DNA of 64,000 nt, from NCBI RefSeq assembly GCF_000003815.2, contig NC_049987.1, positions 13,812,926 through 13,876,925 of the forward strand, read 5' to 3'. Below the pieces are notes generated by a model. It was not told the DNA's origin. It did not search any database and saw only the letters and a list, made by a program, of their open reading frames with translations. The stretch is from Branchiostoma floridae. Taxonomy: Eukaryota; Chordata; Leptocardii; Amphioxiformes; Branchiostomatidae. How positions within the stretch are numbered: position 1 is the first letter of the stretch; every line of letters starts with the position of its first letter. The position numbers and the translations under genes were made by a program. Below are positions 17,469-63,329 of the stretch, piece by piece.

Positions 17469-19215
17469 TGCCCCTCTAGGTGTGATCTCTCATCTATGTA
17501 ATCAAATGTCCCTGGGTGTTTCCGGTTGTGAAGTGGGCTTGAGGAGAATCAAAGCATTCCTCACTCATGGGAAAGGTGTCACTGCATCCTACTTTACGCT
17601 TCAAATATGCACTTGTAAAAGTTGTATTGTGCTGGTTCAGGGCTGGACATACTTTTCAACAGCTTTTTTGAACTGGAACGATCCTTGCCTGGGAATACTT
17701 TTCACCACCACCCAAAATATGCTACCATCTGAAAAATTATAACATACTCACTAGGCTCTATTTCCAAGAAATGATTCATTTGGAATTTCCTATCATATAT
17801 AATTAAAGTTGAATAGGGCTAACAAGATAACATTCTACGACAGCAACCCTTTCCAATAGCGTGCAAGAAAGGTATGCAACAGAAGACCAGGATTCAAAAT
17901 GTTGACCTTCTCCTCTGAAAGCAAGCTTTTCAACCATGCACGAGCATTTAGGGTGCAATTTTCTTACCACTACAACTACAAGAATGACTCTCTATGAACA
18001 GTAGTACTCAACAATCAACAGGTTATAAATATCAATCCTATTCCAGTTGTCATATCTAGATGTAGTTAAGATAAAGCAATTTCGGGTCTTTAACCTCTAA
18101 CTGTCACCATGAGGTTTCAACCAGACACAGGAGTCGGCCTAACTCTAATTGGTCCTCGGACTGGAAGGGTTTAGAGGTTATCGGAAAAGAGTAGGAAACT
18201 GGGTAGACATAGCTGTGCTGGATTATTTTTCTTGTGAAGGGTTCTGTCTGGCTTATTGGCAACGTCCCTAGTAAAAACTTTCAGACTTGTTGACAGCTCC
18301 TTGCATATACACCAGACAGGGGAACTGGCTGGCCCTGCCAGCTACCACATGTATGTACTTATTACAAAGTGCAAAATACTCTTTTTACTGTTATAGTAAT
18401 TCTTATAGATGATCAAATAAGATGATTGACACATTTTCTGAAATGGTTCCAATCCAATCTGAAACCTACTGTGAGAGATTAGTTTGTTTGTCCTGCTAGA
18501 TAAGAATCACGTTCATAGATCACCCCCAAATAACCCCTGCTAGTTGCTAAGATACTGGCTGAAGATCCTTTTTTGTACCAAGAAGAAGTAGCAAGATAAT
18601 ATTATGCATGTATGACTCTTGTCTGTATACAAAATGGGAAGCCATGTGATGACACTAAAGAAGAGCCAAGTTGCCTACCAATGACTGAGTTCAATAATGA
18701 GCTGTCTAACCTTGGGTGATAAGAACAAAAATGACTTTCTTCTCTCTGAGGTACAAGAGCAGGCCCAAGCAAACTTGTGAGCTAAAATTCTCACAACTCT
18801 TGCCAAAATTAGCTCTCACCGAAAATAAAAGGACTGATGATTACCGACTGACAAACACAATGCTTCTATTTTTGTCAGACCTACTAGGCATCCGCAACGT
18901 TATCAGTCCTTTTGTGCTCTTAATGAGTTCTGTTCTGTTGTTATCAGCTTGTTAGCTGAGAGAGTTTACTTCTCATAGCAAATAACGCCAGTACCAACCC
19001 CAATCAACTGTAATAGGTTACCTGTAACCAATGTCTATTAACCAACTCCCTGTTGCATAACTACATATCCAAATCCAATTTGGTGCAAAATGGTTACCAT
19101 AGGACAGTGAAGGTTATCATGACTGAAACCACGGACACACAGAGACCTTTTTCTTAACACTCTTACAAGGACAACTTTATCTCTTTCTTAACCTGTCCCA
19201 GAGACAAAGCCTTAA

Positions 19216-19861
19216 GGTATCTCGGTCGGCTAAATTGGCATTTGGGCCTTCCACTGTTTTCTTATTAATGAATTAAGACAGAATGGAGCCGTAACGAATG
19301 TTGATAGATGGGCATTAAAGAATTCTAAATCTGATTTTTGGGGGGCCAAATTGATGACGTCATCATTTTATTGGCTCTGATATTATTTTTTTCTATGACA
19401 AAATACAGCACTTTGGTACATACCACTGTAATGAAACTTCGTTGTTCGTTGCATAATGATACAAGCTACAAACGTAGTGTTGCGCAAAATGATATCTACT
19501 AAAAATCTGTAGTTATTAAGAATTAATTTTTTTTAATTAGATGAAAACAAACATTTTCTAATTACTACAGATCATTAGTAGATATCATTTTGCGCAACAC
19601 TACCTTTGTAGCTTTCATCATTATGCAACGAAAGACGAAGTTTCATTACAGTGGTATGTACCAAAATGCTGTATTTTGTCATAGAAAAAAATAATATCAG
19701 AGCCAATAAAATGATGACGTCATCAATTTGGCCCCCCAAAAATCAGATTTAGAATTCTTAAATGCCCATCTATCAACTTTCGTTACGGCTCCATTCTTTC
19801 TTAATTCATTAATAAGAAAACAGTTGAAGGTCAAAATGCCAATTTAGCCAACCGAGATACC
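19216..19861. mobile_element. Foldback transposable element with TTAA target duplication
   Basis: The two halves of this 646 bp stretch are near-complete inverted copies. The left arm runs from GGTATCTCGGT to about 19530. The right arm runs from about 19560 to ACCGAGATACC. Only a short AT-rich spacer separates them. TTAA stands immediately outside both ends (19212-19215 and 19862-19865). A TTAA duplication is typical of piggyBac-type transposases, so a piggyBac-driven foldback MITE is the best reading. No transposase is encoded. Arm-to-arm mismatches and small indels show it is not brand new. Alternative: a full palindrome formed by another TTAA-targeting family. Confidence 0.85.
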
Positions 19862-19865
19862 TTAA

Positions 19866-20321: not shown

Positions 20322-20420
20322 TTCTCTTCTCCACAAGTTCCGAAGAGAACTCCATTTCCTGTCTACTCACAGATAACACAGACACAATATGTGGGGTAGG
20401 GTAGCGGCGTCACCATCACG
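20322..20420 (+). repeat. Split direct repeat A1
   Basis: It begins TTCTCTTCTCCACAAG and ends CACCATCACG. It is identical by eye to A2 at 21169-21267. Sequence to the left of A1 and to the right of its end differs from that around A2, which fixes both repeat boundaries. Confidence 0.85.
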
Positions 20421-21052
20421 GCGGCCGGGGTTTAATGGCTCCTCGTCAGTCAGTGATATAACGTCCTTGGTCATAACAAGTGTAATAGCCATGAACTAAG
20501 CAAGTCATGCTGCGAGCGGGCGACACGTTTTACCCTGGTTGCCAATGTATAAGAAGCCAATGTGAAGCCAATGTCGGGCTGGTCGGTTAAACCAATGCTC
20601 TGTCCAGCGGATGTTTAACGCATCCTGACTTGCAACTTAACTCAAAGTCACAGTAAGTCACAGTAAGTTTACGTCACATGGGGGCCACCATGTCAGAAGA
20701 GTGGCGTAATAATGACCTTAATTAGTAAGGAACGAGTAGCACAATTACGGTCTGAGTAACAAGGTCAAGTAAAAAACTAAATCCAAGGTTGAACGGCAAG
20801 TACGCTAATACAATACAAGCAATACAATACAAGGTAGCGAAGAAGAGGTCAACTAAGGAAGGAATCAAAGAAGTTGTTGTTCCACAAGGCATGAACCACG
20901 CGGGGTGTCTCATTCTAAGTGCTGAATAGTCATAACAATTTTACTCCGTTGAAGGTTGAGCATCAACTTCAATTACCAGTTCGTAAGTCTAACTAGGTTA
21001 TCAATCAGCCTGTACGTCGGGGGAGGGTGTGTTCTGGGGTGGGTGGGCGGGG

Positions 21053-21267
21053 AACACACCCCGACCGCAATGAGGTACAACCACGAATGGTTAGGGGAGA
21101 GGGGAGAACATCTGGGGTAGGTTGGGGGAGGTTCACTTATGCTTCTGTGATCCGACAGGAAATGGTACTTCTCTTCTCCACAAGTTCCGAAGAGAACTCC
21201 ATTTCCTGTCTACTCACAGATAACACAGACACAATATGTGGGGTAGGGTAGCGGCGTCACCATCACG
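21053..21267 (+). repeat. Internal B1-A2 junction of the split direct repeats
   Basis: B1 (21053-21170) is followed directly by A2 (21169-21267), overlapping by TT. GACAGGAAATGG near the end of B1 and CCATTTCCTGTC near the start of A2 are exact complements, and the inverted match extends imperfectly to about 22 bp. The junction is therefore centred on a potential hairpin. That is a plausible recombination site, by inference. Confidence 0.85.
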
Positions 21268-21374
21268 AACAAAAAAAGGATAGAACAGACGGATTAAGTA
21301 ACGTACAGGTGGTACCGAGCACACAACCAACACCACCGGAAAGGTTCGTCGGCTGGCTGGATGTCATGTTCGGC

Positions 21375-21600
21375 ATCGTCAAGTCAACACACACTTCCTA
21401 CGGAGTACAGGTGACCATCGCAGCCGAAGGGTCATAGCTGGAGGGAGCACTACCGAGGTATCGTCCAGTCAACACCCAACCTACGGAGTACAGGTGACCA
21501 TCGCAGCCGAAGGGTCGTGGCTGGAGGGAGTACTACCGAGGCATCCGGTCAACACACACTTCCTTCGCAGTACAGGTGACCATCACAGCCTACCCTCATG
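21375..21600 (+). repeat. Three imperfect tandem repeats inside the element
   Basis: A unit of about 85 bp containing TACAGGTGACCATCGCAGCC is present three times, the third diverged. Units one and two also share GGCTGGAGGGAG-like and TACCGAGG segments. No reading frame runs through them. Confidence 0.7.
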
Positions 21601-21772
21601 GTAGCTGGCGTCACTAACAAGGCATCGTCCTGTCTGGCACACTTGGCCGTACGAGACAACTCAATACGGTCAACAGGGACAAGTACATGTAGATGGCAAG
21701 GTAGAACCGTCTCAGTCAACAGGAGGTTGTTAAGGTCATGTCAGTCGACAGGTTAGAGGCAAGGGAGATGGA

Positions 21773-21836
21773 TGGGGTAGGGTAAGGGAAAGGGGTAGGG
21801 TAAGGAAAAGGGGTGGGGTGGGGTGGGGTGGGAGTG
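21773..21836 (+). repeat. G-rich tract
   Basis: Repeated GGGTAGGGTAAGGG-like units are followed by several GGGGT units in a row. Four or more runs of three to four G lie close together, so intramolecular G-quadruplex formation is possible on the plus strand. Confidence 0.7.
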
Positions 21837-22306
21837 GCTGTACAAGCAATAGTGTAGGAAGTAATTTAACAAGAATTAAGTAATCCAACGAGTAGTTACA
21901 AGCTAGGAAGCAAGTTCCTTGAGATACGGTACATGAGGTACTGTAAGTTCAAGTGTCCAGTATATAAGGCAGCCAAGGTGTCCTCGTGTCGGCTGTCAGA
22001 CTCTGAGTCTCTGAGGGATGAGTCTGATAGACGCGGTGTCGACCAAATAGGTGCAAGACCATACTTCCAGTGTCAGTAAGGTGTCACATAAGTGTGGCTG
22101 TGGAAAGTCCTGGCAGTACAGCAACAAGGTTCTCGATCTGATCCGTGTTACAGTCAGAGACCGGACAGAATTCCCAAGTCTATAATGGCGCGTTCCGGTC
22201 AAGCTTGTTACACCTGGGGTCAACACTCGATCCTGCCAGGGTTGATGTCGGGGGTCGCCTGTGGGACTACTCGGTGCAGATAGCATGTACTGTACTGTCT
22301 GTACAT

Positions 22307-22365
22307 AGATACATACATACATACATACATATATACATACATATATACGTACACATATGCATATA
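22307..22365 (+). repeat. (ATAC)n-like simple repeat
   Basis: Alternating ACAT/ACATAT units form a degenerate microsatellite inside the split-direct-repeat element. Confidence 0.8.
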
Positions 22366-23595
22366 ATGACGTTTAACTTCTTCGCTGTCTGTGATGATCT
22401 GTAATCGGGACTAAGAACCAGTGATCAGCAGGTGTTAATTCGGAAGGCTGCGCCTGTAGGAGTTAAGTCTGTAAAGTCTGAACAGATGACGATTCAATGG
22501 TTGAGGAAAGCATGTGCTTCTCAATGACGTGACTGGAGCCAAGTGGTGCTTTGCATGAAGGCACAGGTAGCATGGAAGAAGCATGGGTAATTAACGAAAA
22601 GCGTAATACAATAGTATAGGTGTGTGACAGCCGTTAACTCGATGTGGTACTCGAACCTGTAGTGAGAGGACACAGCCTGGATGTCAGCCTGAATCTACAC
22701 CAGGCCTAACTGATAACAGGATAGGAGAAAACACTGCAAGAATTTGTGCCTGTCAAAAACAAATAAACAACCCTGGGTCAGTCCTCTGAGGGGGGTATAC
22801 TCTGTATGGCTGGGAACACAGCATCACCTTGTGATAATTAGAATTCCTAGATGTAGGACTAGGAGAAAAGAAAAACACAAACTTGAGCACTGTTCAATCT
22901 TAGAGGGAATCATCTGTTACTTATATCTAGAACCTTCTGGAGGCAGGCTGAACTACCCTATAAACAATTTTACAGAAGTGGAGAGAGAGACTGGTATCAA
23001 TAATTCCCTTGCACATGGGTGTCAAGGCAGGAATGTACCAGGCGGAAAACCCTCAGCATGGTGCCATGTGTGCCTAATTTAACCTTCCAACAAAAGAGGA
23101 GAAAAGACACAAGAATTAGATCTAGATGTGTGGAAAAAACCTGTTTGGGAAACGGTGATTGTTATTCAACGATTAAATTGAGCATCACAGTACAAAATGA
23201 AGAAAAGTTGTCGTTGTTCCTGAGGAAGTTTGAAAAAGGGTGGGTGTGTGGTGTTCAGATCGGCCACTCGGGTGGAAGTTCATCCGTCGGTGGTACGGTA
23301 GGACAAGATGGTCACCGATGAAGACATCAAGGTCACATGTCACAGTGCGGAAGGCAGTTGAATGCAGAACTCACAGGCGAATTGGGATGTCCAGGAGACG
23401 AAGAGTTGACTGGGTCAGTCCAGTAGGAACGGGGCAGCTTGGTAACCAGGGCTCAAGCAGCAACGGAGTTTATCCAGAAGTGTTCAGCACAGAGTCAGGT
23501 GATTGTAGGATCCTTGTAGGTAATCCGTCCAAGTAAAAAGGTGGCAGACCAAGGAAAAAACCCTTCAAAAACAAGGCAAACTGAAGAGCACAACA

Positions 23596-23713
23596 AACAC
23601 ACCCCGACCGCAATGAGGTACAACCACGAATGGTTAGGGGAGAGGGGAGAACATCTGGGGTAGGTTGGGGGAGGTTCACTTATGCTTCTGTGATCCGACA
23701 GGAAATGGTACTT
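23596..23713 (+). repeat. Split direct repeat B2 (right terminus)
   Basis: It is identical by eye to B1 at 21053-21170, beginning AACACACCCCGACCG and ending GAAATGGTACTT. The sequence to the right (TTAAGCC) is unrelated to A2, so this marks the right end of the element. Confidence 0.85.
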
Positions 23714-51147: not shown

Positions 51148-54100
51148 TCATTTCTTAGCCGGCTTGGTGCTGAATAACCTACCAGTGACAGGACAGACAT
51201 ACTTGTTCCTCGCACATTGCACGTGTGTCACCAAGCCATTGGGGTACCTCGCAAAGGCGTTATCACCGAACGGTCTACAGCAAACCTGACATATCCTCTC
51301 TTCCGACAGCGTGATTGGTGTTCGCTTCAGCCCCACCGACGTTCCCTTCAGCTGTAGGTTCTCCCCCCGCGCTAACATTCGCTCGACCCGTGTAGTCCTC
51401 TGGTTGTGCATGCTCTGTCTCACAGCGCGGTTCAAGAACTGCTGGATGAGACCGATAGACCAGTGTGCTGGGATGATTTGTAGCACACGAACTGCGTCGA
51501 AGTCCTCCGCATGATTGTTGAGAAGTTGCACCGCGGGAGCTGCCAGCGAATCTTTTGCACCTTCCATCGGATCCAGATACACGGACAGAAGGATTTGGAA
51601 CAGACGGCGGCGGTATGAAAGGTCATGACCTTTGGCATTAGTGTCGCAGTACTGCTCAGCTGCTCGATAGTCTTTCAGCTTGTACACGAGGATACGCAGA
51701 GCTTTGTCGTGCTCCTCTTTCTTCCCGTACAAGATGGCGCACTCTGCGTACATGTCCGTCTCTTTTACTTTGCCTGAGGAAAATGAATACCTTTTTAATC
51801 CTTAGCACTCTTAAGGTGTCTCAGTGTCTAGTGAACATTAAAAAGATCAATATTTAGATAAGTGACACTCGTACAGTCACTTACCCAAGATTAACGCCAC
51901 CCGGTAGAGAGAAGAGAACTGCAGCATCTGCCTCAGCTTCTCTCTGGAACGTTCCATCTCATCTGGAGGGATGGAAGGGTCCTTCCTCATCTACAAAACG
52001 AGGAAAAAAGAAAACCTAATACATACATCAAAGTTACATTCATTTGCCACAATGTTAAGAAGTATCAGATTTGTTAATTTGTTAGAGACTCGACTTTTTT
52101 AAATCATAAGAGACCATTTTTTATGTTTCATCCTCAGGTGTATTATCTCACCTTTAACACCTTGTCCAGGTACAGTACAGCCAGGTGTGTGTTATCTCAC
52201 CTGTAACACCTTGTCCAGGTACAGTACAGCCAGGTGTGTGTTATCTCACCTGTAACACCTTGTCCAGGTACAGTACAGCCAGGTGTGTGTTATCTCACCT
52301 GTAACACCTTGTCCAGGTACAGTACAGCCAGGTGTGTGTTATCTCACCTGTAACACCTTGTCCAGGTACAGTACAGGCAGGTGTGTATTATCTCACCTTT
52401 AACACCTTGTCCAGGTACAGTACGGCCAGGTGTGTGTGTGTTCTCACCTGTAACACCTTATCCAGGTACAGTACAGCCAGGTGTGTGTTATCTCACCTGT
52501 AACACCTTGTCCAGGTACAGTACAGCCAGGTGTGTGTTATCTCACCTGTAACACCTTGTCCAGGTACAGTACAGCCAGGTGTGTGTTATCTCACCTTTAA
52601 CACCTTGTCCAGGTACAGTACAGCCAGGTGTGTGTTATCTCACCTGTAACACCTTGTCCAGGTACAGTACAGCCAGGTGTGTGTCTTATCTCACCTGTAA
52701 CACCTTGTCCAGGTACAGTACAGCCAGGTCCAGGTGTGTGTCTTATCTCACCTGTAACACCTTGTCCAGGTACAGTACAGGCAGGTGTGTGTCTTATCTC
52801 ACCTGTAACACCTTGTCTAGGTACAGTACAGCCAGGTGTGTGTCTTATCTCACCTGTAACACCTTGTCCAGGTACAGTACAGCCAGGTGTGTGTGTGTTA
52901 TCTCACCTGTAACACCTTGTCCAGGTACAGTACAGGCAGGTGTGTGTTATCTCACCTGTAATACCTTGTCCAGGTACAGTACAGCCAGGTGTGTGTTATC
53001 TCACCTGTAACACCTTGTCCAGGTACAGTACAGCCAGGTGTGTGTTATCTCACCTGTAACACCTTGTCCAGGTACAGTACAGCCAGGTGTGTGTTATCTC
53101 ACCTGTAACACCTTGTCCAGGTACAGTACAGCCAGGTGTGTGTTATCTCACCTGTAACACCTTATCCAGGTACAGTACAGCCAGGTGTGTGTTATCTCAC
53201 CTGTAACACCTTGTCCAGGTACAGTACAGCCAGGTGTGTATGGTACTTCTCCTTCTCCAGTCTCCTGGTGAACACCAGGTGCTCCAGGTAGCCGACCACA
53301 GCCTGTGGATACCTATGCAGGTAGTCCACAATTGTCTCCGGTCTCATGCGCTCAGTCTGAGGCTCGTCGGTGGGACGCTGGGTGAAAATCTTCACACCTG
53401 AAAGAAAACACACATCACATCAGAAAGTTAAACTTTATAGAGCGCAACCCATATGCATTTACGAGAAAAAATTGTTAACATGCTTGGTATGCAGTAGCCA
53501 AATCTATAAAAGCTAGCTGACCAATAAAGCACAGGTTGTTACTGTTGATGGTAGTGTTCATCACACAAACAATGTATGAGTGGTGTACCACAGGGGAGCT
53601 GCTTGGGACCATTACTTTTCTGCATTTACACCAATGATCTACCCACAGCTGTATCAATATTGAGATGTATGCTTACTTAAATTTGCTGTAGTAGTAGGAT
53701 TGCTCTGTAGTAGAATTGCACTTCGGGATCAATTCATGTATCTGGATGAATCCCAATTCATGAATCTTGGTATGAACGATGTCTTATACTGGAACTACCC
53801 ATTCAAATCAACTTAGTCTGAAAATATGACAAAACCATATGGCCCTGCTTACCCTGCTCCTGGTCCCTCTCCAGAGCCCAGTCCACGTACCTCCACACCA
53901 GCTCATGGTCAGTCAGCTGGGACAGGAACTCCACCACGAAAGGCAGCCCAGGATGGGAGGGGTCAGTCAGCTCTCCGTTCACTATACTCACCCATACCTT
54001 ATACAGGAATATACAATAACAGGATTAAAAGGTATGATACATCTAGTAGTTTGTAAACGTGTCTAACTACAAGAAACCAATCCACAAGCTACTAAAATAT

Positions 54101-57100
54101 TACTTTATGACTTGATATCACAATCTTGGATCCTTATAAAGCTAATTACTGGTGATATTTTAAAAAACGAGAAGTATGAAATGTACATTTGTACCTGCAA
54201 TGCCTTTTCATTGTCCCCATGGTACTTGTGGAACAGTCCGAGTGCGTGGTGTCGTCCGTATTTCTGGAGGGAATCTACGCTGTCCTGAATGAAACACCCG
54301 TTCTCTGACGACACGAACTCAACCAGCTTTGGCGAATCAATCTCTGCATACAACTTTAACAAGGCCGTGTCAACCTCCTCTTTGTAGCCAACCACAAGAT
54401 TCGTGTCACGGACGTCCTCCAAGAACGACGCCAGGAAATCTTTGCAGGCTTTCACCTTCCCAGCATTCCCCAGGCAGAGCTGCTTGATGTCGGCGATGTC
54501 GTGAAGAAGCGGGACCGAACGCGTGAAGTTGGAATTTGTCGGAAGCATGAAGGGGAACAGGTTGATCAACTCTCTCACGTCCAACTGGCCGCTCTTGAAC
54601 AGCTCGGCCGCCTCGCCGAAGTTCAGCTGCCGCAACTGGATGAAACCGGCTTGCTGCTGGATCCTGCGGTACATCTTGATGAACCGTTCTTTCGGAATCG
54701 TCCGTCGTGCGCTCTTGGCAAGAGCGAGGGCTTCTTCCACTCTCCTACTGTCCAGCAAGTCCTGGATTTGCTTCTCGAACGGGACTGACACGAGGGAGTA
54801 GATTTCTTTGCTGGATGCCACGAAGATACGTCCCTCGAAATCCCCAATGATTTTCCCCCCTTGGAATGGTATGGTCTGTTTCTGTTGCTGATCCAGAATG
54901 CTGTGAACTGTGATGAACTCTTCATCCATGGCGAGCACGTACGGGAACACGAAACACACCGAGCTGAGATTATCGGACCACTGGAGAGGCGGTCGTTGGG
55001 AGATTCCCGCGGATGTCACAAACATTCCCAGAGCACTGGGACCGCTCAGCAAGAACTCTTCATTCCCCACCCTCTTTATGAGAGGCTTGGTTGTTTCATT
55101 CTCATACGGAAACAAGTCCTGTGTCACGCCAGTTTCAAAGTTCACCATGTTGTACTGTGATCCCAGTGCTACACATATAGATGCACCATCTATACACATG
55201 TTAACAGGTGGTTCAGCTACGGCCACCTCCCTCGTAGCTACCATCCTGTCTTCTGTTACTGTGAACAGCTGCAGGGATTTCTTCCTCCCATATGCCACAC
55301 ATATCTCCACACTGAAGGGATTGTTGCCTAGAGGGCTCTCGTTAATGCTAAATGCTGTCACCCCTTTAACCTTGGCGCCGCTCAGGATTGNNNNNNNNNN
55401 NNNNNNNNNNNNNNNNNNNNNNNNNNNNNNNNNNNNNNNNNNNNNNNNNNNNNNNNNNNNNNNNNNNNNNNNNNNNNNNNNNNNNNNNNNTTCAATGACA
55501 GCAGAACAATGTCATGGGTTATATCAAGATGTGTAGGTACATTTGATCGATGTTAAACGTCAGATAATGGAGGAAACAGGTAGAAACAAACCTGTCACCT
55601 GCCACTGTCCTCTGTTTCCGCCATTGTACAGGAAAGGGAGGAGTGACTTCCAAATGTAAAGTTAAAATTTCATCCTTACAAGCTAACTTGCAAATATTTC
55701 TTTTGAAAATACAAGAGCACTATTCAAAATAAATAATTAAAATTTCTGAGTGTAAATACTACCTTTCTGGCCAAATGAATATGGGATTTATTTTGTAAGC
55801 TTCGTGCAGTTTTGATGCTATATCACGGTGACCTTTATTGACCCGTGTGGTTGGCAAAGAATGCTGGGACTGGATTCTTCCACTACCCACAATGAAGGGA
55901 CATTTTTTGTCAGAAATATATAATTTTCTACATTAGAACTAAAACAAGCAAACGTGTGGACCTTTAATCTTACATTATAGATACTCATATTTTATTTTTT
56001 TTGTATTAAATAACGATATTCACTATTTTCTGTAAATAATTCTTTATGACAAAATATTGGCAACCCCATAAAAAACGTGTTAGTGGGTAATTCCGACCAT
56101 CATGGAGGAGCCGAAGCCAGACGAAGAGGAGGGAGTTCGTGCAGTCGACCTCATTCATCCCGAAATCCTCAGTAAAGACACTCTGATTGACATTCTTACA
56201 CGGGTAAGGCTAGGATCTACATTTTGTGAAAATTTTAGCAAGATTGGTGACCTAGAACGGGAACAGGATGTGTTTTTGTAGGACGCGGCGTGCTTGCGTT
56301 ACAACACACGCCGCACCTGTTTCAACACTCAACCGGCTCTTATAAGGATTTTATTATGGAATACTTGGCGTTATTTTCTCGTTATCTGCACTATACGTTA
56401 CTGTCGCCATTCCCTCAATCCTGGCATGGCTGCAGCATTGTTTACTCTCTATATGTGCCCCCGCTTTTATGTTTATAAGAAGAAGAGAAGATGTCAGTCT
56501 ACCAGATATTATATTTGCATCACATAAATTTAAGCAGAATATCATACATACTGCAAGTAACATGTAAGTGGATCACTTTCAATTTTGACCTATTTCATTT
56601 TTGACCATTTTACACTGCAAGCTTGTTGTGTACAAAATTTACAAATATTCACTGTATCTCTAACCAGCTGTGACACCGACAGAAATTGTCACCGTGGTGC
56701 AATGTGCAGGAAAGCATACTGTGTCAACATGGCATGTGGAACTTTATCATGAAAGTTATCATTATACATATCATTATCATTACACATATGTATATATCAT
56801 AAATCAATGTCATTTACTGTACAAGTTCAGCTGTATTGCTGCAATCGCCTGGTTTACAGTTTGGACTGCATTAGTATACAAGTGAAGCCCTTGAACTTGT
56901 AGACAACTCTTGTCTAGACCATTGTCATTGTCAAGACTGTCATTGCAGCTGCAAAGTGTCTATAACCACTGCAGTAGCAGAACACAGTGGACTACTGTTG
57001 TCATTGATGCCAGTGACACATCTCGAGATGTGTTTTGTTTATGTGTCATGGGCCTTCAACATATCATCCACAATGCTTTACATTGCACATGTGCTGTATA

Positions 57101-60514: not shown

Positions 60515-63329
60515 TCACAACTTGCTGTAGTACTCCTCTCCAACCACCAGAGAGCGATTTATCTCTGCAAGGCTCCTACAACCTGTAAAACAAACAAAAA
60601 ATTATACATACAAAATTCATGAAAAACAGCAAATGTGCTCGCAATTGAGATACAGCTAGAATTTTTGCTCTAGCATAGTTGTTACCTGACAATGTCATGG
60701 CTAGGTCCAGCTCACTACGGAGTATTGTCATCACTTCAGCCACACCATCTTCTCCCTGGGTAAGAAAGAAAAGGTTCAATGTATGTGCAGTGCAAAAGTT
60801 ACATCCAGAAAAACAGGAACACTAAATACGTATGCAACTAACAAGTAGAAAAAGGCATTAAAGGATCTTCAAATGAATGAGGAGCGGTTTCAACTGGAGC
60901 GAGACTCATACCTAACCGAAGAACTCTACTCTACTCTTAAGGTTTGCTTGGCGAAAGTGAACCTTCGGGAGGGATTGAAAGCACAACAAGGCTGCACTCC
61001 AGGCCATTGATTATTATGGTTCTGATAAAAAGTTATACATCATCTATAGATGTTATGCTGCACCTACATTATATGCCAGTCCCCAGATAGCAGGCCGTCC
61101 CACAAACACAGCCCGTGCCCCCAGTGCCAGGGCCTTTAGAACATCTGTTCCAGTTCTGACACCTCCGTCCAGGTACACTTCCAACCTCTCTCCTACAGCA
61201 GCAACTATCTCTGGAAGAACCTCGATCTGCCAACAGTAAGATATGAATAATGTACATTCAATAAGTGCGATAAACGTATTAACCCAACACAGTAATATGT
61301 GAGAGTTAATAATAGTGTGGAATGGCATTGTGGCTATGCAAGCAAATAAACGTTTGATTCCTGGCTAAACATTGGGTCCTTGGTAAAGACACTTGACAGG
61401 ACTTTCCTTACTCCACCCAGATGTAAAATGTGTACCTGACTTGTCTTTGGTTGGGAAGGTATCATAAAAGTAGTGGAAGGAGAGGGATGGGCTCCACCTT
61501 CCAATACCCACCTTCCAGTACCATGCCTTAGACACAATTAACACCCCACTGCCCTACGGCTATGTGACCTTTAGATAACACAAGAGTCTCCAGACAATGA
61601 CAATGTAAAGTATATATAATGCGTTTTCCTACCACTTTGCAGAAAAGTTTGGGTGACTCACAGTAGCCGGAACTCCATCCAGTTGTCTCCCTCCGTGATT
61701 GGACACAAGAATCCCCTTCACACCTGGGTGGTCTAGGGCTATCCCAGCATCCTCTGCTGTCAGGATGCCCTTCAGTATGATTGGCAGGTTGGTGATGGAG
61801 CTCAGCCAATCAATGTCCTTCCAGGAGAGGGCGGGGTCCTCAGGACTAGCACCACCGCCATAGTCCCTCTCATCTTTGGACTGGAATGTTTTGTTTGACT
61901 GATATTGTAAATAGGTCATTTGGAATTTCAGATACCATAGAAAGTGGCCAATTATTTTTGAATGAAGGGCTCATGAAAGCTACAAGTGGACTAATATCCA
62001 AGCAGATCCTATGGTAGCATGAGATAGTATCAAAATCACTCCTCTGCTAGCTTTTGATATTTAATTTTTATTTCAATTTATTCATCTCCAGACATGTGGG
62101 TAGCCCCTTCAACTTTTTTGAAGTTGATTTCCAAGGGGGCCCACTGATACTATCTTATGCTACTGTAGGATCTGCTTGGAGATAACTAGTGGACCACTTT
62201 TTCTCTAAAGATTTTCTCTAAATAGAGATAAGTTACTCTCCAAGCAGAGGTTCAGCTCCAGCTATTTTGTTATGTGTTTTTAGGCTTTCTATTTTGTCCC
62301 ACTCTCCAAGCAGACGTTCGACAGCCACAGGACATGAGAAAATGAGACAAGATAATAAAAAAGCAAAAGAAAGCCGTAGCAAAACCTCTGCATGGAAATT
62401 ATTACAAGATGGAAAGGCTGCTCATGACATACTTACCTGAGATGCTGATGACTCTAGTCCCTGTAGATTGGGCACACTGAGATGTGGAGGAAGCTGGAAT
62501 CTGTTCGTCAGGTCAGGATATCTCTTCCCTACAACCGGCAGGTCTACGGTGACCACTAGAGCCTTGTATCCGGCCGTCTCTGCCCTCTGCACCAGTCTCT
62601 GTGTGAACTGTCTATCAGGCATGATGTACAGCTGAAACCACTTCAGACCCCCAGGCGAGGCAGTAGATATGTCTTCAATGGAGGTTGTGCCGTAGGTACT
62701 GACAATCATACAGGTGTGGGAGTTCCCAACGGGATCTGTGAAGAAAAAGCTAGAATTAGAAATAGAAATAAGTATTTGTGTAAAAATTGTTGTGTAATTT
62801 ATGTCCTGGGAACATTTCAGTTATAAAGTACCAATAGGTGATATAAATTGTAGGCATGAACAATATTGGTTGTTATTGAGTTCTAGCAGGGCTCAAAACA
62901 CTTTTGTGCAAGTGGACCAAAAATCAGAGCTGTGCACCCAATTCCGAAAAATGGATTTCAAGTTATGTTTTTGAATTTTCGACCTATTTACAGTATTGGT
63001 GTTGAAGTTGTCACAGTGACTTTTTTCAGTTTTTTGGTATCAATCTGACAGAATTCCAAGTGCAAGCAGAATTTAGTGACTTGGCAATACTGAAGCGCTA
63101 ACTAGTGATCCATGATGGTACTCCAGCCTTGGAACTGTATGACCTATATGTAAACTGGAAACAAATCCAGATCCTACCTTTAGCTGTGCAGATATCCCCA
63201 TCTGGCCAGGCTAACCCCTGTAGCGCTGTGGAGCTCACACCGACAGGAAAGTCAACCCTCTCCCCGAGCAGAGTCGTGGACAAGTCTCGACATGAAACGT
63301 CACGCAGGAATCTCGGCCGAATTCTCAAT
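60515..63329 (-). CDS. 2-hydroxyacid oxidase, HAO2-like (first exon outside window)
   Basis: Exons in order are 63329-63178, 62735-62437, 61880-61662, 61226-61068, 60755-60686 and 60582-60515 (stop TGA), all GT/AG with consistent phases. They give about 322 residues; the first 45 or so of the usual 350-370 must come from an exon beyond the right edge. This is an FMN-dependent peroxisomal enzyme oxidising 2-hydroxyacids to 2-oxoacids with release of H2O2. Visible features are [15 protein letters not shown], the FMN-site Tyr in [15 protein letters not shown], the flavin Lys in [13 protein letters not shown], catalytic His and Arg in [14 protein letters not shown], and the phosphate-binding [20 protein letters not shown] then [26 protein letters not shown] and the C-terminal [13 protein letters not shown] resemble vertebrate HAO2 more than HAO1. 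The C-terminal SKL is a canonical peroxisomal targeting signal. All catalytic residues expected in this part are present. Confidence 0.93.
61345..61565 (+). mobile_element. SINE-like repeat in an oxidase intron
   Basis: The stretch begins with a B-box-like GTTTGATTCCTGGC and continues with a body containing GACTTTCCTTACTCCACCCAG, typical of amphioxus tRNA-derived SINE bodies as I remember them. The A box is missing, so it is 5'-truncated. It lies in the intron between exons 61880-61662 and 61226-61068. Confidence 0.5.
61986..62196. mobile_element. Foldback element in an oxidase intron
   Basis: CCAAGCAGATCCTATGGTAG and following bases (61998-62031) are mirrored by 62146-62179 (ending TAGGATCTGCTTGG), giving an imperfect inverted repeat of about 34 bp that includes GAGATAGTATC/GATACTATCTT. 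The CCAAGCAGA start links it to the 35762-35882 element. Two further CTCCAAGCAGA strings lie at 62234 and 62301. Confidence 0.6.

Follow-up and report, generated by a model that had tools for sequence, protein, structure and literature searches.

The stretch of DNA analyzed here (64,000 nt of the amphioxus Branchiostoma floridae, contig NC_049987.1, positions 13,812,926 to 13,876,925 of the forward strand; hereafter the window, with positions counted from its first letter) contains a 3.4-kb element in which two repeats, A and B, are each present twice in the order A1-x1-B1A2-x2-B2, where x1 and x2 are spacers. This arrangement is that of split direct repeats, which, to our knowledge, are otherwise found only in tyrosine-recombinase retrotransposons. 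The original prediction, made from the sequence alone, described two identical pairs of 99 nt and 118 nt, with B1 directly joined to A2, and alignment confirms this: A1 equals A2 over 99 nt and B1 equals B2 (23596-23713) over 118 nt, with no mismatches, the only overlap of B1 and A2 being the two T at 21169-21170. The predicted extent, 20322 to 23713, stands at the left end but not at the right, where the last two letters belong to the host. The parts of the element are as follows:

20322..23711, 3390 nt: whole element, A1-x1-B1A2-x2-B2, from TTCTC to GGTAC; full-length at six loci, with empty sites for L002 and L004
20322..20420, plus strand: A1, left end, 99 nt, identical to A2
20322..20349, and again in A2 at 21169-21196: terminal hairpin TTCTCTTC..GAAGAGAA, 8-bp stem and 12-nt loop, a DNA fold
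20352..20373: subterminal inverted repeat, A1-side arm, 86% complementary to 23687-23708
20421..21052: x1 spacer, 632 nt, no domain found in five of six frames
21053..21170, plus strand: B1, 116 nt and the TT common with A2, identical to B2
21144..21165: subterminal inverted repeat, B1-side arm
21169..21267, plus strand: A2, directly joined to B1, identical to A1
21199..21220: subterminal inverted repeat, A2-side arm
21268..23595: x2 spacer, 2328 nt, no Pfam match in six frames
21375..21590: 83-bp tandem array, 2.6 copies, inside x2
22302..22363: TACA-type microsatellite inside x2
23596..23711, plus strand: B2, forming the right end; host sequence resumes with the TT at 23712-23713
23687..23708: subterminal inverted repeat, B2-side arm, 3 nt from the end

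The two spacers have nothing notable in common, good matches being confined to the ends, and the GC content of the element is 48% as compared to 39% for the window. When the 513-Mb genome was searched with a 3392-nt query (the contig of the window is denoted C9 below), the element was found at full length at its own locus and at least five others, at 96-98% identity, and at least one more copy, near-full, lies in two pieces; these counts are lower bounds because the best 40 of 250 candidates were scored. The layout is also preserved in an older copy, L050, whose parts have changed by about 1-18%; together with seven copies from the 3392-nt query, it makes up the eight whole-layout copies examined. 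The host flanks differ from locus to locus. A genome search for the B1-A2 junction, proposed as a check in the original prediction, yielded eight junctions in this family (family 1, L050 included), every one flanked as x1-BA-x2 and with A1 upstream, and nine in a sister family (family 2) that is described below; the second A of L050 lies outside the pattern of the A-end census and was caught by a 28-nt hairpin search.

The unit is one young mobile element inserted end to end, in keeping with the recent insertion that had been surmised. The joined flanks of two loci, L002 and L004, out of six prepared, were searched, and both have paralogous empty sites, which show that insertion occurred in one piece, without duplication or deletion of the target. 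The joined flanks of L002 match three places over the full 300/300 nt at 99%, and the others among 24 rows less well; these sites were judged by coordinates, and the host sequence TAC/TTCTC makes the exact cut ambiguous. At L004, two of the three fetched paralogs align letter by letter across the join, with CTCTG on the right, and the host shows neither duplication nor loss. Aligned insertions thus define the ends as TTCTC...GGTAC, at the level of single letters at L004; because the right host flank of this locus is CTCTG, the TT on the left is the element's own, and there is none on the right. A target duplication of at least 4 nt is absent in 23 of the 24 two-ended copies, and the 24th, L030, which has only half of A and an unsure left border and was kept in the set, shows one of 4 nt; in the null for this comparison, one of 3000 pairs gave 30 and the others at most 7. 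Matches below set lengths were dropped from the flank, pair and target-duplication comparisons. The right host flank starts with TT in 15 of the 24 copies and with TTCTT or TTCTC in five, and the left flank has no likeness to the element start by eye, with no chance control. Exact matches to the A end were absent from the viral contigs and genome contigs collections, and exact matches to the B end from the viral contigs collection.

The split direct repeats look intrinsic to the element, and both pairs look remade at each round, because the repeats are identical within copies and the sister family has the same layout. Specifically, B1 and B2 differ at 0, 0, 0, 0, 1, 0, 1 and 0 positions in the eight copies (the last 2 nt omitted), as compared to up to 18 differences between copies; in L050, B1 and B2 are exactly the same, yet both are 17 off the window copy. 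Among 40,320 re-pairings (mean 41.9), 24 reach the observed sum of 2, and these 24 swap the four identical copies. As the alignment indicates, B1 and B2 change in step, from L050 through L006 and L007 to L001-L005. For A1 and A2, there are no differences in six copies, one in L006 and two gaps in L050, which is weak evidence by itself because A is nearly invariant across family 1; the end of B is conserved too. The original prediction had pointed out that joining the element end to end would reproduce the internal B1-A2 junction, and the concerted evolution of the pairs, with B1 equal to B2 within copies, supports this circle logic of split direct repeats.

Family 2 emerged from a genome search with the 28-nt hairpin, in which up to three mismatches were allowed: 100 places were found, and none with the reversed pattern. 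The sister sequence accounts for 44 of them, 43 with TTCGCAAGCTCC and one with TTCTCAAGCTCC. Ten pairs of family-2 A ends, all on one strand, are less than 2.5 kb apart, and the members of one pair are separated by 35 nt. The copy on contig C17, with a total length of 4599 nt, has A1 equal to A2 over 92 nt and B1 equal to B2 over 145 nt, with spacers of 765 nt (x1) and 3360 nt (x2) and a 90-bp tandem array within x2. Compared with the family-1 counterparts, its A is 79% identical over 66 nt and its x1 84% identical over 96 nt; BLAST with family-1 B did not find family-2 B, and a pairwise local alignment, with no control, shows a weak likeness. The A1 and A2 of the C11 copy differ at one of 92 positions, and its B1 differs from the B of C17 at one of 145. 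A census of family-2 B ends gave 43 places. The B-A junction is present at nine of the 44 A ends, each with A1 852-1986 nt upstream, and B2 follows 208-3744 nt downstream in seven of the nine; in the C16 copy, the distance from A2 to the end of B2 is 208 nt, so that the layout, by coordinates, is A1-x1-B1A2B2. The short distance between A1 and B1 in the window had been said to fit deletion of the usual block of open reading frames, of which there is no sign, the family-2 copy having the same two spacers.

Two further places are candidates for longer relatives with family-2 ends: A and B ends are 5.8 kb apart at C9:14719989-14725760 (minus strand) and 7.5 kb apart at C1:31462874-31470344 (plus strand), where B is a three-mismatch variant that occurs also on C19. 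At the A/x1 border of L005, L031, L032 and the family-2 A1 of C17, the inner end of A is repeated in short tandem duplications, as if copying slips there.

Besides the whole layout, shorter forms exist. Family 1 includes four single units of A-x1-B size (842-887 nt) and the hybrid L022, one A-x2-B unit of 2571 nt, and ten short A-B forms (minis) of 126-305 nt. No two of the seven minis L023, L025, L028, L030, L033, L034 and L037 have the same joint, and in each of them it lies near A nt 93-99 and B nt 1-20; L036, L043 and L049 join elsewhere, L049 lacking the first 8 nt of A, and the mini at C6:9223828 lies outside the joint comparison. Of the 53 A ends, 20 have no B end (three mismatches allowed, within 12 kb), and 18 such places were examined, among them L041 in a host tandem array, L063 with a degenerate B downstream, and L045 and L046, which belong to one duplicated segment. 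Six of the 18 are A units of about 89-99 nt (about 140 nt in L069) flanked by direct duplications of the target, which measure 14, 22, about 60, 67, 83 and 117 nt and are imperfect in the longer cases (null: mean 11.1, with one value of 150, a self-match or array). Apart from L041, where the host array masks the outcome, no target duplication was seen at the remaining places, seven of which, L063 among them, sit in short stretches; L060-L068 were taken as 241-nt stretches, in which long duplications could escape, and L062 and L065 were re-fetched as L069 and L070. Thus A often behaves as a unit of its own that ends internally where the homogenized zone does, and the A-only units may be products of interrupted copying. 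In L040 and L048, the target duplication is followed by ATCAT on the plus side, perhaps a nick preference, as seen in these two cases only.

The original prediction had considered A and B as unrelated, which does not hold: 22 nt of A (20352-20373) are an 86% inverted complement of B (23687-23708). The score of this inverted repeat is reached by none of 2000 dinucleotide shuffles and by one of 1897 random window pairs, and the motif has four matches in the window as compared to 0.05 expected, all of them the four arms. The distances of the repeat from the A and B ends are 30 and 3 nt, respectively, in family 1, and 32 and 5 nt in family 2, where the geometry is the same and the changed letters still pair (10 of 2000 shuffles equally good). 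The terminal 28 nt of A form the hairpin, with its stem preserved in family 2; 8 of 200 shuffles fold equally well, as do 3 or 2 of 200, depending on the strand, for a 59-nt A-end piece and 83 of 200 for the whole 99-nt A. For the B-end piece, 100 of 200 shuffles fold equally well, so that a 5' hairpin is unsupported. A degenerate B end to the left of A1 is not claimed, being matched by 87 of 5000 shuffles and by 118 of 5596 TT-ending stretches of the window.

The element had been predicted to be non-autonomous, with no recognizable reverse transcriptase or recombinase, and this holds for the frames scanned, that is, six of six in x2 and five of six in x1 (plus frame 3 left out). No Pfam match at the cut-off was obtained for the six frames and single open reading frames of x2 (best E 0.055) or for the five frames of x1 (best E 0.39), and neither reverse transcriptase, RNase H and tyrosine recombinase domains nor RepHel were found in these frames. 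Membership of the element among tyrosine-recombinase retroelements, which had been proposed, is accordingly not shown. The scan of the family-2 copy on C17 covered 2.8 kb of x2 in six frames, leaving out x1 and the last 0.56 kb of x2, and gave nothing at the cut-off (best E 0.036); Rfam, too, yielded nothing at the gathering score for the window. The census of family-1 ends, with up to three mismatches, gave 53 A ends and 38 B ends, the longest A-B pair at a single locus being 3.4 kb and one 11.2-kb pairing bridging separate loci. The loci L045 and L046 (C6:25774200-25784150 and C2:17577700-17587600) were considered as a coding relative and rejected: they have 8.6 kb in common at 97%, the likeness running past A on both sides, and represent a larger duplicated segment that contains an A unit and, after it, a roughly 97-bp tandem array; no Pfam match was obtained for six frames of L045. 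A separate 3.1-kb repeat, L055/L056 (C9:281800-285000 and C2:6991400-6994600; 98% over 2.3 kb and 99.7% over 0.75 kb), carries a B-end-like motif, not at its end; the frames of L056 gave no match at the cut-off (best E 0.094).

The concerted pairs in two families, the single order of the repeats in the copies read, and the lack of other family-1 tandems argue for functional split direct repeats and hence for a circular or looped intermediate, an architecture in which we have high confidence. With less assurance, we consider the whole to be, probably, a non-autonomous split-direct-repeat element that is copied through a circle by an enzyme acting in trans. The ends would be remade at each round from one template, most simply via a circle joining B2 to A1; within this circle, the internal B1A2 junction would serve as template or splint, and a recombinase supplied in trans would open the circle into the chromosome. 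The A-x1-B and A-x2-B units, the A-B minis and A alone, all without an internal B-A junction, look like non-breeding by-products. As for the machine, a Ngaro/PAT-type tyrosine-recombinase retroelement is a plausible source, slightly favored over the rolling-circle type; a rolling-circle, Helitron2-like enzyme may do the same, and it is improbable that the machine would be of some other kind.

A close parallel is the Ngaro layout, A1-[ORFs]-B1A2B2 (ORFs, open reading frames), from which solo AB repeats are left behind (PMC8547959); split direct repeats and solo AB by-products of the Ngaro type also figure in PMC9210276. Amphioxus has Ngaro-like elements, and at one locus their repeats are arranged in a distinct way (PMC2632668). 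The present element resembles Ngaro in the order of the split repeats, the identity of the pairs, the direct joining of B1 to A2, and the solo AB by-products, with the C16 copy of family 2 having the Ngaro layout by coordinates; insertion without target duplication is common to tyrosine-recombinase retroelements (Ngaro, PAT and VIPER). Unlike Ngaro, it has spacers on both sides of B1A2 in both families, along with subterminal inverted repeats, a terminal hairpin and A-only copies with target duplications, and gag, reverse transcriptase, RNase H and tyrosine recombinase were not found in the frames scanned. In contrast to long terminal repeat (LTR) elements and to DNA transposons with terminal inverted repeats, the inverted repeats are subterminal and there is no target duplication of fixed length; the B-A unit was not recognized as part of a known LTR or DNA transposon, Repbase being outside the comparison. 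Within a literature search that covered few subscription papers and did not include Repbase, no non-autonomous split-direct-repeat element was found by title.

Several observations weigh against copying through a circle by a trans-acting enzyme, in particular one of the Ngaro type. Neither an enzyme nor a coding partner sharing these ends turned up in the scanned frames and the family-1 end census, and the geometry of the inverted repeat and hairpin, like the target duplications of A-only copies, is unexpected for a tyrosine-recombinase retroelement. The case is carried mainly by the B repeats of L050, L006, L005 and L007, plus family 2, for which the two B copies were read at a single locus (C17); B2 is missing within 10 kb of one of the nine family-2 junctions, and another has only a variant B, 7471 nt away. 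Furthermore, insertion free of target duplication is seen for minis and solos as well, and therefore the internal junction is unnecessary for integration itself. Finally, direct repeats of about 100 nt could also be kept identical within copies by gene conversion, provided that it is frequent.

Among the alternative explanations, the one that survives best, while being unlikely in our estimate, views the element as two head-to-tail HINEs of the Helitron2/Helentron type, E1 (A1-x1-B1) and E2 (A2-x2-B2), which form a rolling-circle composite with read-through of the inner end; B on the minus strand would be the 5' end and A, with its hairpin, the 3' end. Helitron2 is described in PMC3627910 as having the 5' repeat 0-2 bp and the 3' repeat about 20-30 bp from the ends, with a hairpin up to the terminus, and one-ended copies of Chlamydomonas Helitron2 as having target duplications of about 7-19 bp; for mite HINEs, the inverted repeats are given as 2-4 and 38-60 from the ends in PMC4067079, which, together with PMC7492417, also mentions central tandem repeats. 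The asymmetric subterminal inverted repeats at 30/3 nt and 32/5 nt, still pairing in family 2, the hairpin between the inner repeat and the terminus, insertion free of target-site duplication, the central tandem repeats and the one-ended copies are all features shared with Helitron2, Helentrons or HINEs. Indeed, the A-only copies with target duplications (6 of 18 places, 14 to about 117 nt), the subterminal repeats and the hairpin fit the Helitron2 type better than they fit a tyrosine-recombinase retroelement. The host TT on the right in 15 of 24 copies, with TTCTT/TTCTC like the element start in five, the existence of single units, the excess of A ends over B ends (53 vs 38), and tandem Helitrons on record (PMC4067079 and PMC5148889) point in the same direction. 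However, if the minus strand is read as the top strand by the Helitron2 plan, the host has AA rather than TT (or TTTT/T) and the element begins GTACC, that is, with G rather than the 5' T of Helentrons and HINEs; the 5' hairpin of Helitron2 is unsupported, and no RepHel is seen in the interior. Helitron1 likewise inserts without target-site duplication and has a hairpin near one end, but it is defined by 5'-TC, CTRR-3' and insertion between A and T, and the present element has neither the 3' CTRR nor A/T insertion. A composite of adjacent Helentrons is weakened because the pairs evolve in concert and a sister family exists: it leaves unexplained the identity of B1 and B2 within copies, which is unlike Helitron2, the same layout in two families, and the x1-BA-x2 arrangement in eight of eight family-1 junctions.

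Also unlikely, and slightly more doubtful, is a second origin of split direct repeats, in non-coding elements with rolling-circle-type ends, in at least two families of this genome that would be neither tyrosine-recombinase retroelements nor ordinary Helitrons. Such elements would combine asymmetric inverted-repeat and hairpin ends with duplicated A and B, both restored in every round from the internal junction. Ordinary gene conversion, which would have kept two old units alike without any special replication step, appears quite improbable: the repeats do lie in cis, with the A copies 0.85 kb and the B copies 2.5 kb apart, but repeated events would be needed in several lineages and in both families, and the borders of conversion would have to coincide with the borders seen in most of the minis and A-only copies. 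Chance repeats, an assembly artefact or a larger segmental duplication can be dismissed, since nothing beyond the repeat itself speaks for them, the eight copies and the empty sites rule out the first two, and the flanks, which differ at each of these separate loci, show that A and B do not extend into larger duplications, a condition that the original prediction had named as one that would count against it.

Here, the layout is maintained, with concerted pairs, in elements that yielded no enzyme and have a different style of ends. If a partner is found and is of the tyrosine-recombinase type, the elements would be a clear parasite family of such a retroelement, whose cis signals would be narrowed down to about 100 and 118 nt; if it is of the rolling-circle type, such a system can use the split-repeat trick, too. 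The by-products, namely the solos, the minis with differing joints, and the A units flanked by target duplications (14 to about 117 nt), may correspond to stages along the replication path and render it testable.

Elsewhere in the window, an inverted repeat with 322-nt arms (19212-19533 and 19544-19865; 93% complementary, 10 nt between) lies about 450 nt to the left of the element and is foldback-like or similar to a miniature inverted-repeat transposable element. An open stretch of an FMN-dependent dehydrogenase is located at 62425-62817 (minus strand), and open stretches of a Vps39-like gene (CNH, Vps39_1 and zf-Vps39_C) at 51148-55511 (minus strand); amid the latter, at 52138-53239, there is a 49-bp minisatellite with 22 copies and 94% matches.

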